A stretch of 64,000 nt of DNA from an uncultured Flavobacteriales bacterium (GCA_905479915.1 CAJQOH010000015.1:124001-188000), one strand, 5' to 3'; positions 53,584 through 63,970 are shown, numbered from the stretch's first letter. Numbers and translations: made by a program. The notes: generated from the sequence alone by a model not told the origin.

Positions 53584-54042
53584 CTAAGAAATTAGTTTTT
53601 GACGCAGCATAAACTCTAATTGTTTATTTGACTGGATAAGCTGTTCAGTTAGAATTTTATTTTCTTGTCTTAAACTGAAAACCTCATGCGCTTGATTAAG
53701 AACCATCTTCATGAAATTATTATCCCAAGGTTTAGAAATGTATTTATAAATACTTCCCTTATTCACAGCTGCAATTACAGCATCAATATCAGAATAACCT
53801 GTTACTAATATGCGAATTGGTTCTGGATGTGTTTTTATTACTGACTCCAAAAATTCTACTCCTGTCATTTCTGGCATTCGTTGATCCGTTAAAATAATTT
53901 CTATCGGATTATTAAGTAAAACCTCTTTTCCTTCAGATGGAGATTCTGCGATAAAAATATTGAACTCCCTTCTGTAAGAAGCTTTAAAAGCCATTAAATT
54001 AGACTTTTCATCATCAACATATAGTATATTTACTTTTTCCAT
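53584..54042 (-). CDS. Stand-alone response regulator receiver protein
   Basis: 152 residues from the ATG at 54042 (the frame is open 15 codons further but that part is not receiver-like). Phosphoacceptor Asp53 (LTDQRMPEMTG), acidic pair Asp10-Asp11 and Lys near residue 103 (YKYISKPW) are all present. No output domain; a ~35-residue helical tail (RQENKILTEQLIQSN) may dimerise as a coiled coil. Its receiver is closely related to that of the receiver-PAS-kinase at 57975 (AFKASYRR versus AFKASFRR; IRILVTGYSDI versus IRILLTAYSDI). Divergent from the signalling operon across a 301-nt spacer. Confidence 0.88.
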   Translation of the reverse strand: MEKVNILYVDDEKSNLMAFKASYRREFNIFIAESPSEGKEVLLNNPIEIILTDQRMPEMTGVEFLESVIKTHPEPIRILVTGYSDIDAVIAAVNKGSIYKYISKPWDNNFMKMVLNQAHEVFSLRQENKILTEQLIQSNKQLEFMLRQKLIS

Positions 54043-54075
54043 TATTCCCAATAAATCATTTAAATTACATCCAAT

Positions 54076-54083
54076 CAAATATA
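54076..54083 (-). promoter_or_regulatory. -7 box for the receiver gene (TATATTTG)
   Basis: Exact TAnnTTTG on the minus strand, 33 nt before the receiver ATG; no good -33 TTG. Confidence 0.4.
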
Positions 54084-54234
54084 TCATTATTTTGCATACA
54101 GATGTACTTGATAAAAATAAAGAAAAGGATTATCTCTTCTTCATAACGAATAATAAATACGTGTAAGCACCTACTAATAAACATGTATTATTACTTATTT
54201 GTTTCGCTCATTTTTTTTGTAATATTACATGCAA

Positions 54235-54242
54235 TAATTTTG
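54235..54242 (+). promoter_or_regulatory. -7 box for the signalling operon (TAATTTTG)
   Basis: Exact TAnnTTTG with TTTG ending at 54219, spacing 15 nt (a little short). It would give a leader of about 95 nt before the TTG start of the first gene. Confidence 0.4.
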
Positions 54243-54343
54243 TGAAATTTAATATGTAAAAGGTGTTTAGGTTTGAATCTTTGTATTAGTAGTTATTCTA
54301 ATATTAAATCTTTGAAAAAAATCACTAAATAAAGTTATAAAAG

Positions 54344-55078
54344 TTGGATAATTCTCAAGAAATAAGAATTCGAATCTATAAAGCTACTAACAACTTAGAT
54401 GCTTGTAAAAGGTTTGCCCAAGGTCATGCAGATGTATTAAAAAGTTACAACATTAAAAAAGTAACTTCATCTAATACAACTTGGTTTGATGATTCTGATG
54501 TCTATATCATTATGGTAGAAAACCCCTCAGGAGATGAAATTTACGGGGGAGCTAGGTTTCATTTAAAAAACAACAATTTTTTATTGCCTATTGAAGAAGC
54601 TCTTGGTGAATTGGATCCTAAAATATTCACATTAGTCAGTAAACATGAGAATTATAAAACTGGTGAAATGTGTGGAATGTGGAACATGAGAGAAATGTCT
54701 GGAACAGGCTTAAGTGTTTTATTAATGCGAGTAGGAGTAGCAAAAGCTGCTATTTTTTTAGCAGACAACCTTAAATTAGATTCTATTTTCACATTATGTG
54801 CTCCATGGACAGTTCAAATGGTTAAAAACGTAGGATTTAAAGCAGAAAAATCATTAGGAAATAATGGCGGCTTCATCTATCCAACTCCAGATCTTATTGC
54901 TTCAGTTTACGTAGCAAATGATATTAAAAATTTAACAACTGCTCAACCCATTGAAAGAGAAAACATTTTCGATCTTCGAAAGAACCCTGTTCAAAAGAAA
55001 ACAGAAAATGGACCTAAAGGATTAATTGAAGTAGAGTACAACTTAATGATGCCACACGAAGATAGTATCGAAATATAA
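54344..55078 (+). CDS. GNAT-fold enzyme, autoinducer-synthase-like
   Basis: 244 residues from a TTG start. The order of elements resembles GNAT acyltransferases and in particular the LuxI/N-acyl-amino-acid synthase branch: strand-turn IYGGARFHL near residue 68 (compare GxxR in LuxI), GMWNMREMSGTGLSVLLMRV near 109 as a possible W-x-x-R/E, then a helix LADNLKLDSIFTLCAP, and TVQMVKNVGFKAEKSLG near 158, matching the V-x-x-x-x-x-G-F helix at the end of the fold. The C-terminal ~75 residues are less ordered. No signal peptide. It opens the operon with a methyltransferase and three two-component proteins. GNAT fold is likely; signal synthesis is inference. Confidence 0.65.
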   Translation: MDNSQEIRIRIYKATNNLDACKRFAQGHADVLKSYNIKKVTSSNTTWFDDSDVYIIMVENPSGDEIYGGARFHLKNNNFLLPIEEALGELDPKIFTLVSKHENYKTGEMCGMWNMREMSGTGLSVLLMRVGVAKAAIFLADNLKLDSIFTLCAPWTVQMVKNVGFKAEKSLGNNGGFIYPTPDLIASVYVANDIKNLTTAQPIERENIFDLRKNPVQKKTENGPKGLIEVEYNLMMPHEDSIEI

Positions 55079-55095
55079 AAAAGAACAGAATACAA

Positions 55096-55851
55096 ATGGA
55101 AAAACATTACGACTCGGATTACCTAAAAAATTCTGGAAGAGTATTAAAAACTATAAAAGAATATTCTTATAGTTTTATTAAAAAAGATATAGAAGGTAAT
55201 ATAATAGACCTCGGGTGTGGCAATGGAATAGATGTACACACAATGGCTAAATCATATTCTAACACAAAGATCATAGGAATAGATCATGATACCACTTTAA
55301 TTGACATAGCTAAAAAAAATACAACAGCATCTAATGTTAGTTTTATTCATTCTGAAGCACACGATATTCCTTTTGATAGTAATTCTATTAATGGCTTAAG
55401 GGCGGAAAGAATAATCCAACACCTTTCAAACCCTGAAGATGTACTTAAAGAAGTTTACCGTGTTTTAAAAGAAAACAGTCCGTTTGTAATTGTAGAAACT
55501 GATTGGCATGGCATTACATTTTATACCGAACACATTAATATTGAAAATAAGATTAAAAAATACTTAGTTGAGGATAAAATAAAAAATGGATTAGCTTCTA
55601 GAAATACCCTAAACTACCTAAACAATCAAAAATTCAAAAACATAAATGTAAAAGTATTTCCCATCACACTTTATTCTTTAAATGAGGCCAATGGACTATT
55701 TAAAATAGAGGAATTAATAAATGAAATGGAGAACAAAAGCCTTTTAACTAAGGATGAAACAAATAAGTTCAGTAATAGTCTACACGAATTGGACAAATCA
55801 AATTGTTTTTATTGCTCAATTGATTTAATTGTTTTTGCCTCTACAAAATAA
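55096..55851 (+). CDS. Class I SAM-dependent methyltransferase
   Basis: 251 residues. Motif I IIDLGCGNGIDVH near residue 36, acidic end of beta-2 IIGIDHDT near 62, motif II SEAHDIPFDSNSINGLRAERIIQHL near 85 (read as two pieces), and post-motif III LKENSPFVIVETDW. This is the Methyltransf_11/UbiE-like layout, with small-molecule substrates. It is 17 nt downstream of the GNAT-like gene and overlaps nothing; the kinase gene starts 7 nt after its stop. A role in modifying the GNAT product is possible but unproven. Confidence 0.82.
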   Translation: MEKHYDSDYLKNSGRVLKTIKEYSYSFIKKDIEGNIIDLGCGNGIDVHTMAKSYSNTKIIGIDHDTTLIDIAKKNTTASNVSFIHSEAHDIPFDSNSINGLRAERIIQHLSNPEDVLKEVYRVLKENSPFVIVETDWHGITFYTEHINIENKIKKYLVEDKIKNGLASRNTLNYLNNQKFKNINVKVFPITLYSLNEANGLFKIEELINEMENKSLLTKDETNKFSNSLHELDKSNCFYCSIDLIVFASTK

Positions 55852-55858
55852 ACAAACA

Positions 55859-57982
55859 ATGAAATACTTATTCACTCTTATTTTAATCCTAACAGTTGCT
55901 TCAATCTCCAAAGCAACAACTTCTCAAGAAAACATATTGTTAGTTCTTGATAATAATCTTGAGGAAAAAACAATAGGTAAACACATTTTAATCTACCAAG
56001 ATAGTGACAATCTAAGTTTCGATGAAATTATCGAAAAAGATAGTTTCAATACAAACCAAGCACTAATACCCAACCTTGGCCTAACAACTGATGCTGTTTG
56101 GTTAAAAATTAATGTTCAAAACAAAAGTTCCATCACTTCTTTTCTACTGGATATAGAATACCCTATGTTGGATGAAGTTGAATTTTTCTATCCAGACTCT
56201 AACAATGAATATGTAAGCATTTATCTAACAGAAACATTTCTTGAAAAAAGAGATTTTAATACGCCTGCTTATGTTTTTAATTTAAGTCTACTAAAAAATG
56301 AAACTAAAACCTATTATTTAAAAATAAAGAATACCGAACAAATTTTACTTCCTATCTCTATTAAAACCAATCAATCATTTTGGAGTAGTGTCAGCACAAA
56401 AAACATCATTAATGGAATATACATCGGTATTATACTCATTATGTTTTTTTACAATCTATTTGTTTTTTTCTCTGTAAGAGACAAAAGTTATTTATACTAT
56501 GTTCTTTATGTTATTTCTACCGGTCTCACCCATATGGGTATACAGGGGTACAGTCTGAGTTATTTTTTCCCTACTATAAATATAGATGGGAGCATACTCA
56601 CTATTTATGCCTCAATTGCTGGAATATCTGTTGTACTATTTACAAAATCTTTTTTAGAAACAAAATTTAATGCAAAAAAATTAAATTACGGTTTAAGTCT
56701 ACTAACAATATTGTTTTCAGCTAGCTTAACTCTTATTATTTTAGGCAAGAATCATATTGGATTTAGTTTAATGCAAATGGCTACTACATTATTTTCATTT
56801 TACATTTTAATCGTCTCTTATTATTTTTTATTTAAAGGCTATAAGCAAGCAAGTTTTATTGCTTTATCTATGTCAATATTGTTAATAGGTGCTATTATCT
56901 TTTTATTAAAAGATTTTGGAATTCTACCTTACAACAATGTAACTAACTATTCCATGCAAACTGCATCTGCATTAGAAATGGTCCTTCTATCTTTTGCGCT
57001 AGCAAATAGAATAAACATCTTTAGATCAGAAAAAGAAACTGCTCAAGAAGAAGTAGTATTAGCACTAAAAGAAAATGAAAAAATAATACGAGAACAAAAT
57101 GTTATACTAGAAGAAAAAGTTGAAGAAAGAACTTTAGAATTAAATAAAACCTTAGGCGATTTAAAACAAACCCAATCCAAATTAGTAGATGCCGAAAAAA
57201 TGTCATCGCTCGGTCAACTTACTGCTGGGATTGCTCATGAAATTAACAATCCAATCAACTTTGTTTCTTCCAATATTACACCACTTCGTCAAGACATTGA
57301 TGATCTTAATTCCATCATGAATAAATATGAAGAGATAACAGATGCTGAAAATGTTAAAGAAAAACTTAATGAAATCAATCAACTCAAAGAAGAATTAGAT
57401 TATGATTATTTAAAAACTGAATTAACTTCCATTGTAGATGGTATTGAAGATGGAGCCAAACGTACTACCGAAATAGTTAGTGGTTTAAGAAATTTCTCTA
57501 GACTTGATGAAGGAGAATTAAAAGAGGCAAATATAAATGAAGGTGTTGAATCGACTTTAATTCTAATTAAAAACAAACTCAATGGTATAAAAGTTAAAAA
57601 AGAATTAGGAGAAATACCTACTACCGAATGCTATCCTGGAAAGCTCAATCAATTACTAATGAATTTAATTGATAACTCTATTGATGCAATTCACTCTAAA
57701 GAAACTGACAACAAAGAAGGTATCATTAATATTTCTACCACAGCTAACAATGAGTATCTTTTTATTACCATAAAAGATAACGGTATAGGTTTTAATAATG
57801 AAATTAAAGAGAAATTATTTGAACCTTTTTTTACTACCAAAAAAGTAGGAAAAGGAACTGGTTTAGGTCTTTCTATTGTATACAGTATAATAGAAGCACA
57901 CAATGGAGGCATTGAAGTAACATCAAATGAAAAAGCTGGAACAGAGATAACGGTTAAAATTCCGATAATAAAGCATGGATAA
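55859..57982 (+). CDS. 7TMR-DISM sensor histidine kinase
   Basis: 707 residues from the ATG at 55859 (the frame is open 10 codons upstream, inside the methyltransferase). A signal peptide (about 1-19) precedes an extracytoplasmic beta domain of the 7TMR-DISMED2 type (to ~175, ending NTEQILLPISI), then seven membrane helices (about 180-385). A coiled coil (LEEKVEERTLELNKTLGDLK) leads to the dimerisation domain with phospho-His460 (GIAHEINNPINFV) and an ATPase domain with N-box LMNLIDNSIDAI, G1 DNGIGF and G2 GKGTGLGLS. 7TMR-DISM sensors bind carbohydrates or other small molecules outside. Its end overlaps the next gene by 8 nt. Confidence 0.9.
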   Translation: MKYLFTLILILTVASISKATTSQENILLVLDNNLEEKTIGKHILIYQDSDNLSFDEIIEKDSFNTNQALIPNLGLTTDAVWLKINVQNKSSITSFLLDIEYPMLDEVEFFYPDSNNEYVSIYLTETFLEKRDFNTPAYVFNLSLLKNETKTYYLKIKNTEQILLPISIKTNQSFWSSVSTKNIINGIYIGIILIMFFYNLFVFFSVRDKSYLYYVLYVISTGLTHMGIQGYSLSYFFPTINIDGSILTIYASIAGISVVLFTKSFLETKFNAKKLNYGLSLLTILFSASLTLIILGKNHIGFSLMQMATTLFSFYILIVSYYFLFKGYKQASFIALSMSILLIGAIIFLLKDFGILPYNNVTNYSMQTASALEMVLLSFALANRINIFRSEKETAQEEVVLALKENEKIIREQNVILEEKVEERTLELNKTLGDLKQTQSKLVDAEKMSSLGQLTAGIAHEINNPINFVSSNITPLRQDIDDLNSIMNKYEEITDAENVKEKLNEINQLKEELDYDYLKTELTSIVDGIEDGAKRTTEIVSGLRNFSRLDEGELKEANINEGVESTLILIKNKLNGIKVKKELGEIPTTECYPGKLNQLLMNLIDNSIDAIHSKETDNKEGIINISTTANNEYLFITIKDNGIGFNNEIKEKLFEPFFTTKKVGKGTGLGLSIVYSIIEAHNGGIEVTSNEKAGTEITVKIPIIKHG

Positions 57983-59360
57983 AGTAAAAGTACTATACAT
58001 AGATGATGAAGTTTCTAATTTAAATGCATTTAAAGCATCTTTTAGAAGACAGTTTGCTATTTATCTAGCAAGGTCTGCTGACGAAGGCATGGAAATATTA
58101 AAAAACATCCCTATAGAAGTTGTAATAGCTGATCAAATCATGCCTAATAAAACTGGAGTAGACTTTTTTGAATCAATATTGGATTTATACCCTAACCCTA
58201 TTCGAATTCTTTTAACTGCCTATAGTGACATTAATGCTGTTATTGATTCGATAAACAGAGGTCATGTTTATCGTTACATTACAAAACCATGGAATGATTA
58301 TGAATTAAAACTAACTATAGAGAATGCTTATCATTTATACCACCTTAAAGAACAAAACAACAAACTAGATCTTAAATATAGGACAATCTTTTCCAAGTCT
58401 ACTGACCCTATTGTAATTTTTGATGATAAAGGAAGAATTATTGATTACAATAAAGCAACGCTGTTATTACTAAATGATAAAGAGGAAGATTTAAATTTTT
58501 CTTCATTAAACTCATTAATACAAGATAAAAAAGAAACCAAACATATTATTAATATAATAAAGGAAAAGGGAGTACTTAAAGATTATGAATGTGAAATTAC
58601 AGTAAAAGATAATGATAAAAGAATATGTTTAATTTCAGGTAATGCTGTCACCAATAGCTATGGTAGAATAGTTAGTTATCAAGCTATCATTAAAGATATA
58701 ACTGAACGAACTCAAATGAATCAGTTATTACTCAAAAAAATCATTGAAACACAAGAAGACGAAAGAAAACGAATAGCAAGAGATTTACATGATGGTATTG
58801 GACAATCTCTAGTTGCAGTAAAATTGCATATAGAAGGACTCAAAAACAACTATAATAAAAATAATGACATTAAAAAAGAATTAAATATTATACCCCAATT
58901 AATACATCACTCTATAGGAGAGTTAAGAAGAGTTTGTTTTGATACACTTCCACTTTTTTTACAAGAGTATGGTTTAATTAAAGCGATACAAGAATTAAAA
59001 TCTACCTTTTCGAATTTAGATTTTAAAATCATATTTAAATATGATAAAGAGCTCCCTGAATTAACAAATCCCTTAGAAATTTCTATTTTTAGAATTATTC
59101 AAGAATTCATGAATAACAGTATAAAACATAGCGAAGCTACTGAAGTTAACATAAATATAAAAAACAAAAAAAATAACATTATATTGAACCTAAAAGATAA
59201 TGGGATAGGTTTTAACATTGATGATATAAAAGAGAATAGAGGTCAAGGGTTAAAAAACATTAAAACTCGAGTTGACTCTTTTAAGGGTAAACTAGAAATA
59301 AATAGCATAACTGATAAAGGAACCGAATTTAAAATAGCATTTCCAACATTGTACATTTAA
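57975..59360 (+). CDS. Hybrid receiver-PAS-histidine kinase (HisKA_3)
   Basis: 461 residues. An N-terminal receiver (1-125) has Asp53 (IADQIMPNKTG), Asp10-Asp11 and Lys in YRYITKPW. A PAS domain (about 130-250, FSKSTDPIVIFDDKGRIIDYN) follows, then a NarX/DegS-type HisKA_3 domain with phospho-His272 in ERKRIARDLHDGIGQSLVA and an ATPase domain (NNSIKHSEA; DNGIGF; GQGLKNIKTR). The receiver in front of a kinase suggests that the 7TM kinase phosphorylates it and so controls kinase activity towards the LuxR regulator. Overlap with the upstream gene implies translational coupling. Confidence 0.92.
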   Translation: MDKVKVLYIDDEVSNLNAFKASFRRQFAIYLARSADEGMEILKNIPIEVVIADQIMPNKTGVDFFESILDLYPNPIRILLTAYSDINAVIDSINRGHVYRYITKPWNDYELKLTIENAYHLYHLKEQNNKLDLKYRTIFSKSTDPIVIFDDKGRIIDYNKATLLLLNDKEEDLNFSSLNSLIQDKKETKHIINIIKEKGVLKDYECEITVKDNDKRICLISGNAVTNSYGRIVSYQAIIKDITERTQMNQLLLKKIIETQEDERKRIARDLHDGIGQSLVAVKLHIEGLKNNYNKNNDIKKELNIIPQLIHHSIGELRRVCFDTLPLFLQEYGLIKAIQELKSTFSNLDFKIIFKYDKELPELTNPLEISIFRIIQEFMNNSIKHSEATEVNINIKNKKNNIILNLKDNGIGFNIDDIKENRGQGLKNIKTRVDSFKGKLEINSITDKGTEFKIAFPTLYI

Positions 59361-59372
59361 AATATTAAGAAG

Positions 59373-60014
59373 ATGAAAAACACAAACGTATTATTGATTG
59401 ATGATCATGAATTAATAAGATCTGGATTAACAACAATTATTAATTCTGACGATAGTGATATAAAAGTCATTAATGACTGCAGCAATGGAGAAGAGGCAAT
59501 TGAATATCTAAAGAAAAAAGCTAAAAGAATTGATGTAATTTTAATGGACATCTCTATGCCAAAAATGAATGGAGTAAAAACAACTGAAAATATTTTAGCC
59601 TTATACCCTGACAAAAAAATTATAGCTCTTACGATGCATTCCGAAGAAGCATATATCATGAAAATGATTGAAGCAGGAGCATCGGGATACCTTTTAAAAG
59701 ATAGTAGTCCTGAAGTATTGATAGAAGCTATAAAAACGGTGTGTCAAGACAAAAAGTATTATAGCAATGATGTTTCTGATAAGCTAGTTAGTTTACTTTT
59801 AAATGATGATAAAAAAGATGAAACAGAACTAACTAGTAGAGAATTACAAATACTTGATTTGATTTCTAAAGGATATAAAAACAAAGAAATGGGAATTGAA
59901 CTTGGTATTAGCAACAGAACCATTGAAAGCCACAGAAGTAATATCATCAGTAAACTAGGGGTTAAGAATACAGCAGAACTAATAAGTTATGCCCACAGTA
60001 ATGACCTAATATAA
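59373..60014 (+). CDS. NarL/LuxR-type response regulator
   Basis: 213 residues. Receiver: Asp10-Asp11, phospho-Asp59 in ILMDISMPKMNG, conserved Lys in GYLLKDSS near 110. Output: C-terminal LuxR/GerE helix-turn-helix (LTSRELQILDLISKGYKNKE, then IGNRTIESH-like SNRTIESHRSNIISKLGVKN). It is the expected partner of a HisKA_3 kinase, which is encoded directly upstream (12 nt). It binds DNA as a dimer when phosphorylated; targets unknown, possibly its own operon. Confidence 0.94.
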   Translation: MKNTNVLLIDDHELIRSGLTTIINSDDSDIKVINDCSNGEEAIEYLKKKAKRIDVILMDISMPKMNGVKTTENILALYPDKKIIALTMHSEEAYIMKMIEAGASGYLLKDSSPEVLIEAIKTVCQDKKYYSNDVSDKLVSLLLNDDKKDETELTSRELQILDLISKGYKNKEMGIELGISNRTIESHRSNIISKLGVKNTAELISYAHSNDLI

Positions 60015-62943: not shown

Positions 62944-63384
62944 ATGAAAAAAATCATCTTAACACTTAATATCGTTTTAATCGGAATTTTAGCAGCTGCT
63001 CAACCAGTTTCAATAGAAAATCTAAATCAAGTAAAAATTGAATTTGAAACAGAAATCATTGATTATGGAACTATTGAACAACATGCTAATGGAATTCGTG
63101 AGTTTAAATTTAAGAATGTTGGGAATGCTCCATTAATAATATCAGAAGCAAAGAAATCTTGTGGATGCACTATCCCTACCTGGCCAAAAGAGCCTATTAA
63201 ACCAGGACAAAGCTCATCTATAAAGGTTAAATATGCTACTGAACGTGTAGGAATAATTAACAAATCAGTCACCTTAATATCAAATGCAGAAAGAGCTTCT
63301 ATTGTCTTAAGAATAAAAGGTAAAGTGATCAGTCCACAAACAACTCCATTAGTTCAAGAGAATGGAAAACCAGTGGCTAAATAA
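62944..63384 (+). CDS. DUF1573 secreted protein, copy 1
   Basis: 146 residues. A signal peptide (1-18, ILAAA-Q) precedes one DUF1573 domain: FETEIIDYGTIEQHANGIREF, then FKNVGNAPLIISEAKKSCGC, TIPTWPKEPIKPGQSSSIKV and KSVTLISNA. DUF1573 is an immunoglobulin-like (MSP/ASH-type) domain common in Bacteroidota secreted proteins; the SCGC motif may form a disulfide or bind metal. Function unknown. It is the first of two tandem paralogues. Confidence 0.88.
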   Translation: MKKIILTLNIVLIGILAAAQPVSIENLNQVKIEFETEIIDYGTIEQHANGIREFKFKNVGNAPLIISEAKKSCGCTIPTWPKEPIKPGQSSSIKVKYATERVGIINKSVTLISNAERASIVLRIKGKVISPQTTPLVQENGKPVAK

Positions 63385-63467
63385 TTTGGTACAATATTGG
63401 TAAACTATCCATCAAATTTGTATTGTTAAAGAAGTGTTAACAGAAAATTGAAACAACAATTAATCAG

Positions 63468-63475
63468 TATGTTTG
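63468..63475 (+). promoter_or_regulatory. -7 box for the second DUF1573 gene (TATGTTTG)
   Basis: Exact TAnnTTTG with a TTG at 63448-63450, spacing 17 nt. It is 30 nt before the ATG, so the second gene can be transcribed on its own. Confidence 0.58.
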
Positions 63476-63505
63476 TACTGTTATAGAAAATTAAACTAAT
63501 TAATC

Positions 63506-63970
63506 ATGAAAAAAGTATTATTTACATTTGGCTTATTAGCTTTTGTTGCGGTTGGTGCTAATGCACAGACTACTGCTACTCCTGCTGCTAAGGTTGAAGT
63601 TCAAAATCCTAATGCTCCTACTATTACTTTCGAATCAGAAGTTGTTGATTACGGAACTATAGATCAAGGCGCTGATGGTGTAAGAGAATTTAAATTTACA
63701 AACAACGGTAAAGAACCGTTAATCATTTCTAACGCTAGAGGTAGCTGTGGATGTACAGTTCCAACTTGGCCAAAAGAACCAATTAAGCCAGGTGAAAGTT
63801 CAGTAATCAAAGTTAAGTATGACACGAAAAGATTAGGTGCTATTAACAAATCGGTTACAATTACATCTAATGCTTCTACTCCAACTAAAGTAGTTAGAAT
63901 TAAAGGTAAAATTATTGCACCGAAAACTTCTCCAGTTAAAGAAACTGTAGGGTCTCCGGCTGCACATTAA
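63506..63970 (+). CDS. DUF1573 secreted protein, copy 2
   Basis: 154 residues. Signal peptide (1-20, VGANA-Q), a short Ala/Pro-rich linker, then a DUF1573 domain closely like copy 1 (SEVVDYGTIDQGADGVREF; NGKEPLIISNARGSCGCTV; PTWPKEPIKPGESSVIKV). The codons here use more GCT and GGT than in copy 1 and the gene has its own promoter, which suggests higher expression. Function unknown; likely periplasmic or surface exposed. Confidence 0.9.
   Translation: MKKVLFTFGLLAFVAVGANAQTTATPAAKVEVQNPNAPTITFESEVVDYGTIDQGADGVREFKFTNNGKEPLIISNARGSCGCTVPTWPKEPIKPGESSVIKVKYDTKRLGAINKSVTITSNASTPTKVVRIKGKIIAPKTSPVKETVGSPAAH

Follow-up and report, generated by a model that had tools for sequence, protein, structure and literature searches.

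N-acyl oxazolones are compounds of known biosynthesis but unknown physiological role, and the authors describing them note their resemblance to signals (PMC12856293). TrzA acylates tryptophan, after which TrzS (Rv1355c) cyclizes and desaturates the N-acyl tryptophan to tryptazolone (PMC12856293); TyzABC and OxzAB act in a like manner on tyrosine and phenylalanine (PMC10404671). In all of these systems, TrzAS, TyzABC (M. tuberculosis), and OxzAB (Pseudoalteromonas), an N-acyltransferase lies beside a ThiF protein and a nitroreductase-type (NTR) oxidase. The synthases FeeM and NasY (stieleriacines) are similarly found beside ThiF, nitroreductase, and sometimes methyltransferase genes, and the portions of the source available to us report no linked kinase (PMC12479983). 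Two signaling systems also bear comparison. Ralstonia PhcBSRQ consists of a methyltransferase, a membrane sensor kinase, a REC-plus-kinase protein, and a lone receiver (PMC8578825, PMC6989110), and LuxI-type acyl-homoserine lactone (AHL) synthases are GNAT-like acyltransferases encoded beside signaling genes.

The cassette analyzed here, from an uncultured Flavobacteriales bacterium, lies in a stretch of DNA of 64,000 nt (the whole stretch is referred to below as the window) and resembles each of these systems in part. The oxazolone-pathway set of ThiF cyclase and NTR oxidase with an acyltransferase is complete in relatives of the cassette but not in the window, where ThiF and NTR are missing and a methyltransferase is present. 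Unlike the oxazolone pathways, for which the cited papers mention no sensor kinase, the present cassettes nearly always come with a 7TMR-DISM kinase. All of these Phc-type components are present in the window cassette, which differs in adding a GNAT synthase, in having a 7TMR-DISM protein as its sensor, and in including a NarL/LuxR regulator in its output where Phc uses PhcA; this likeness is one of component types, without homology data. With LuxI the cassette shares a similar motif order (W, Y, GGxR, P, E), yet its predicted receptor is a membrane kinase and not a LuxR receptor, and there is no evidence for a homoserine lactone. The comparison with LuxI is one of fold and logic, not of membership.

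Gene set and recurrence across Bacteroidia

Five co-directional ORFs were found on the + strand between 54344 and 60014, with gaps of 17, 7, -8, and 12 nt (Table 1). The original prediction, of five genes on one strand with gaps of 7 to 17 nt or an overlap, was borne out in this respect, and Pfam returned the same domains for genes 2 to 5 as had been called (methyltransferase, 7TMR-DISM kinase, REC-PAS-HisKA_3 kinase, and LuxR-type regulator); with its domain set, HK1 qualifies as a 7TMR-DISM sensor kinase. The GNAT gene starts with TTG; in L020, a relative with 62% identity can be aligned to it beginning at that relative's residue 1. For HK1, the ATG at 55859 yields a signal peptide (MKYLFTLILILTVASISKA), whereas the TTG at 55829 merely marks where the ORF opens mechanically. 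The divergent lone receiver belongs to the gene set. Neither this receiver nor the ThiF-type enzyme usual in relatives had figured in the original prediction.

Table 1. Features of the cassette, with positions counted from the first letter of the window
Feature	Position	Strand	Basis or remark
Lone receiver (REC) protein, 167 aa, C-terminal coil	53584..54087	-	PF00072 E 1.7e-15; divergent to operon
Divergent intergenic region	54088..54343		Both promoters presumed here; sequence only
GNAT-family N-acyltransferase, predicted N-acyl amino acid synthase (TrzA-like)	54344..55078	+	Family profiles
MT, SAM methyltransferase, cassette-specific family, predicted product modifier	55096..55851	+	PF13847 E 3e-19; Methyltransf_31/11/25
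HK1, 7TMR-DISMED2 + 7TMR-DISM sensor histidine kinase, predicted receptor	55859..57982	+	PF07696 E 3e-25, PF07695 E 9e-46, PF00512 (HisKA), PF02518 (HATPase)
HK2, REC-PAS-HisKA_3-HATPase relay kinase	57975..59360	+	PF00072, PF00989, PF07730, PF02518
NarL/LuxR-type response regulator, predicted output	59373..60014	+	PF00072 E 4e-29, PF00196 (GerE) E 7e-19

Among 396 Bacteroidia genomes, each at least 90% complete, the GNAT was present in 85 (21%), representing 48 of 198 genera. HK1-type sensors were searched in the same genomes and lay no more than 4.5 kb from the GNAT in 83 of the 85 GNAT places; the two exceptions were a contig end and a remote match (the remote relative G217 has GNAT and ThiF genes with no HK1 nearby). 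In the reverse direction, all 43 HK1 sensors scoring at least 200 bits adjoined a GNAT, as did 70 of 72 at a threshold of at least 165 bits. Because the association holds both ways, GNAT and HK1 are a dedicated pair and no local coincidence; pure chance or mere neighborhood is ruled out by the adjacency in 83 of 85 places. Across the 78 loci with called genes, HK1 followed the GNAT directly or after one intervening gene in 77 and a divergent small receiver was encoded in 66, and a REC-kinase protein followed downstream in most relatives. The MT family, searched at E <= 1e-40 in 395 genomes, gave 7 matches, all 7 inside these cassettes and between GNAT and HK1. By these counts, relatives of the first two genes almost always lie near the kinase.

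A contig search with the single window GNAT protein recovered one relative, L020. No phage relatives were found, nor were plasmid relatives of the family member L067. The sole match outside the class Bacteroidia, in G505, was discarded: G028 contains an identical contig, and one of the two assemblies is therefore likely to be contaminated.

The predicted acyltransferase and its putative tailoring partners

Sequence searches with the window GNAT alone gave no Pfam, NCBIfam, or PDB match, and nothing convincing came from PDB sequence searches with the GNAT. The predicted label "GNAT-like" nevertheless holds, because 12 of 47 family members match PF00583 (Pfam; best E 3e-4) and one matches FeeM (E 0.008); together with the TrzA-like match described below, the first gene is GNAT-like by family profile, although the window member itself goes without a match. 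Six columns of the family are invariant (W47, G69, E108, W113, Y179, and P180) and four are nearly so (H28, R71, L81, and P82), and these columns indicate a real, conserved enzyme family. The GNAT fold assigned to gene 1 rests on profiles, with no confident predicted structure behind it: AlphaFold models from a single sequence (pLDDT 30) and from two sequences (pLDDT 40, pTM 0.45) were too poor to use, and a Foldseek search with the pLDDT-40 model placed GNATs at the top, none of them significant (E >= 0.08).

When the GNAT family profile was compared by hhalign with five TrzA-like proteins encoded beside actinobacterial Rv1355c-family genes, the match had a probability of 93% and an E value of 3.3e-7 over 173 columns. 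This comparison set consists of proteins adjoining Rv1355c-family genes, M. tuberculosis TrzA itself lying outside it, and only the family profile reaches them; the window GNAT sequence alone found no match among the TrzA-like proteins. A profile search of a 500-kb Rhodococcus plasmid gave as its sole match (E 7e-5) an unannotated protein adjoining an Rv1355c-family gene and a GGDEF gene. No match to the LuxI (Autoind_synth) family was observed among the 47 members (Pfam, E <= 1), and the family profile gave no significant match to three FeeM-type proteins from Bacteroidia. By these profile comparisons, the GNAT is nearer to the TrzA-like putative N-acyl amino acid synthases encoded next to Rv1355c-family genes than it is to LuxI.

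ThiF adjoins the GNAT in 65 of the 78 loci, alone in 26 and fused to an NTR domain in 39, and the ThiF-NTR fusion passes the NCBIfam equivalog model NF005901 ("Rv1355c family") with 836 bits against a cutoff of 476. Beside the window GNAT, ThiF is absent, and MT occupies the slot between GNAT and HK1. No TrzS-type ThiF was found elsewhere in the window genome (97.5% complete), where the only hit was weak and of a generic ThiF-like kind (E 1e-5, with 26% identity along part of the length), and tblastn of ThiF against 54001-54420 revealed no ThiF remnant upstream of the window GNAT. MT is found in 7 of the 78 loci, none of which retains an intact ThiF; by simple counting, uncorrected for kinship, the 13 loci that lack an intact ThiF would include all seven MT genes with a chance of only ~6e-7. 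The nearest named families of MT are UbiE/ArsM-like. Other enzymes can stand in MT's place: an ICMT-type methyltransferase in two loci and, in the same-genus relative L048, a FAD-linked oxidase accompanied by an internally deleted ThiF that keeps residues about 8-126 and 329-353. Since the carboxylate is the target of ThiF, and ICMT enzymes belong to a family that methylates carboxyl groups, capping of the carboxylate is favored, by inference, as the common outcome. MT would then most likely cap the free carboxylate as a methyl ester, a weaker inference in which the site of methylation is a guess.

Joint exchange of MT and the HK1 sensor half

For tree building, HK1 was split into a sensor half (residues 1-410) and a kinase half (from residue 436); all trees were quick searches without bootstraps. 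In the GNAT tree the seven MT-type loci are scattered and need five changes, and a single MT clade is rejected (p 7e-52), even for six of the seven (p 4e-9). The kinase-half tree likewise rejects one MT-type clade (p 1e-61) and puts the window among ThiF-type cassettes from the genus and family to which it belongs (71% identity to L055). In the sensor-half tree, 6 of the 7 MT-type loci form one clade (SH-aLRT 99.8) that spans three families beyond the window's own; the seventh, L097, falls just outside this supported clade. Pairwise identities follow the same lines. The MT-type L108 and the ThiF-type L088, of the same family, are 63% identical in GNAT and 67% in kinase, against 32% in sensor, and the L108 sensor is 40-41% identical to those of the window and L047; for L097 and L109 the identities are 49 (GNAT), 59 (kinase), and 25% (sensor). 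MT-type pairs have an excess of sensor identity beyond that expected from GNAT plus kinase identity, matched in 39 of 2000 shuffles, and no such excess of kinase identity (level reached in 1996 of 2000 shuffles). A later locus, G674, with GNAT, MT, and HK1 genes and no ThiF beside the GNAT, was checked against a prediction written beforehand: its six best sensor matches were all MT-type and its best kinase match was ThiF-type, though it is not fully independent because it shares its genus with L064.

The sensor half groups the MT types, a grouping rejected by both the GNAT and the kinase half, so MT and the sensor half were exchanged together. Such joint exchange is what a sensor that reads the MT-modified product would lead one to expect, ligand binding itself being inferred from tree and identity patterns. 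That the sensor half is inherited with MT and not with its own kinase half lends indirect support to the idea that the enzymes make the ligand, a last step that remains inference. As neighbors, MT and the sensor half could also have moved on a single recombination tract with no function to bind them. Because linkage alone can keep neighboring genes together in this way, the exchange pattern argues strongly for ligand matching but only circumstantially, and does not prove it.

A putative self-sensing circuit and its alternatives

We consider it probable, with appreciable room for error, that the cassette encodes a self-produced small-molecule circuit, a form of quorum-like N-acyl-amino-acid signaling whose product, ligand, export, and autoinduction are inferred and have not been demonstrated. 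By its TrzA-like homology, the GNAT would attach a fatty acyl chain to an amino acid. In most relatives, to judge from Rv1355c/TrzS family membership, ThiF, often NTR-fused, would cyclize and desaturate the product to an oxazolone; in the window lineage, with ThiF gone, the dedicated MT would modify the product as proposed above. The neutral product may then exit the cell and be bound by the DISMED2/7TM half of HK1, as the joint exchange of sensor and MT suggests. HK1 would signal to the HK2 receiver and the lone receiver, and HK2 to the NarL-type regulator, a phosphotransfer route inferred from an observed order of domains. The regulator in turn might act on target genes, perhaps including its own operon, again an inference.

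The pathway could instead be a cluster for lipid biosynthesis that carries a cluster-situated regulator, in which an outside cue elicits an N-acyl amino acid (an antibiotic, surfactant, or membrane lipid) that the sensor never binds. Related molecules, stieleriacines and N-acyl tyrosines, have antimicrobial roles, which speaks for such a cluster (PMC12479983; PMC12856293). The HK1 sensor is 27% identical to a LadS. We know of no 7TMR-DISM sensor elsewhere, LadS included, that acts as a receptor for a self-made lipid, which also favors an outside cue. A sensor of that kind, however, need not change with the tailoring enzyme, and here the sensor and MT vary in step from family to family, whereas the kinase half does not; we regard the outside cue as unlikely.

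Little credence is given to a membrane-lipid homeostasis loop, in which an N-acyl amino acid lipid would be kept in the cell's own envelope and its level gauged by the membrane part of HK1 without any cell-to-cell signal. Such lipids, e.g., glycine lipids, are known in Bacteroidota (PMC12479983), and tryptazolones are enriched in cell pellets, not supernatants, but N-acyl tryptophans are more abundant in culture supernatants (PMC12856293), and the patchy presence of the cassette (21% of genomes) suits a signal or specialized metabolite better than a housekeeping lipid. Highly improbable is the reading that MT and sensor DNA were exchanged as one tract while nothing functional connects the enzymes with the kinase: the adjacency of MT and the sensor half in the operon permits it, yet it leaves unexplained both the adjacency of GNAT and HK1 in 83 of 85 genomes and the coincidence, in several lineages, of both tract ends with functional borders (GNAT|MT and sensor|kinase).

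Since the sensor half has been swapped together with the decorating enzyme, a hitherto undescribed self-sensing (quorum-like) system is probable. The original prediction of a signaling or quorum-like layout is supported, and neither of the results that would have refuted it (no GNAT fold in the first gene, or relatives of the first two genes mostly far from the kinases) was obtained. More tentatively, and without yet counting on it, we envisage a class-wide quorum-sensing family in Bacteroidia based on N-acyl-amino-acid-derived lipids (oxazolones or, in the window type, methylated acyl amino acids) and dedicated 7TMR-DISM kinases, whose dialect would change by block swap of tailoring enzyme and sensor half.

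No description of the kinase-linked cassette was found in the open-license literature, a search that left out subscription papers and preprints; comparative-genomic surveys of the E1-like superfamily exist in subscription journals and may have noted ThiF-nitroreductase fusions. Bacteroidota are prominent in the sea, in soil, and in the gut, and no lipid autoinducer that has its own dedicated receptor is, to our knowledge, established for them. The presence of a dedicated kinase beside oxazolone-type enzymes in about one-fifth of the sampled Bacteroidia genomes gives a testable role, and the matched swaps of tailoring enzyme and sensor half provide natural chimeras for mapping the ligand specificity of 7TMR-DISM sensors.

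Tailoring-enzyme slot

In G010, a same-genus relative, the ThiF gene adjoining the GNAT gene (predicted N-acyl amino acid synthase) is internally deleted, with approximately residues 127 to 328 gone, and an FAD-linked oxidase gene comes after the GNAT gene; judged from sequence, this arrangement is a putative snapshot of tailoring-enzyme replacement.

Coordinates of tailoring-slot genes and of the small-protein pair
Feature	Location	Remark
Internally deleted ThiF gene	L048:9816-10286	G010
ICMT/PEMT-type membrane methyltransferase	L080:8703-9344	occupies slot of ThiF or soluble methyltransferase
ICMT/PEMT-type membrane methyltransferase	L095:10262-10900	occupies slot of ThiF or soluble methyltransferase
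Two small proteins	window 62944-63970	146 and 154 aa

Cassette composition across loci

Two loci (L058 and L065) each hold a single cassette with two GNAT copies, one of them divergent (~26-28% identity to the window protein), which suggests two predicted acyl products. The remote GNAT-ThiF pair of G217 (L161) has no 7TMR-DISM kinase close by and is an instance of predicted biosynthesis genes lacking a nearby sensor. L057 and L158 are identical 4675-base contigs from assemblies G028 and G505, which are assigned to different classes; one assembly is probably contaminated or misbinned.

Small proteins and GGDEF neighbors

The neighboring, similar, secreted-looking small proteins of the window have near-identical cores (SCGCTxPTWPKEPIKPG) and apparently represent a tandem duplication. 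On Rhodococcus plasmids (L130, L143, L144, and L145), GGDEF genes adjoin TrzA-like and Rv1355c-family genes, a further putative tie, resting on gene neighborhood, between the predicted N-acyl-amino-acid-derived lipids and signaling.
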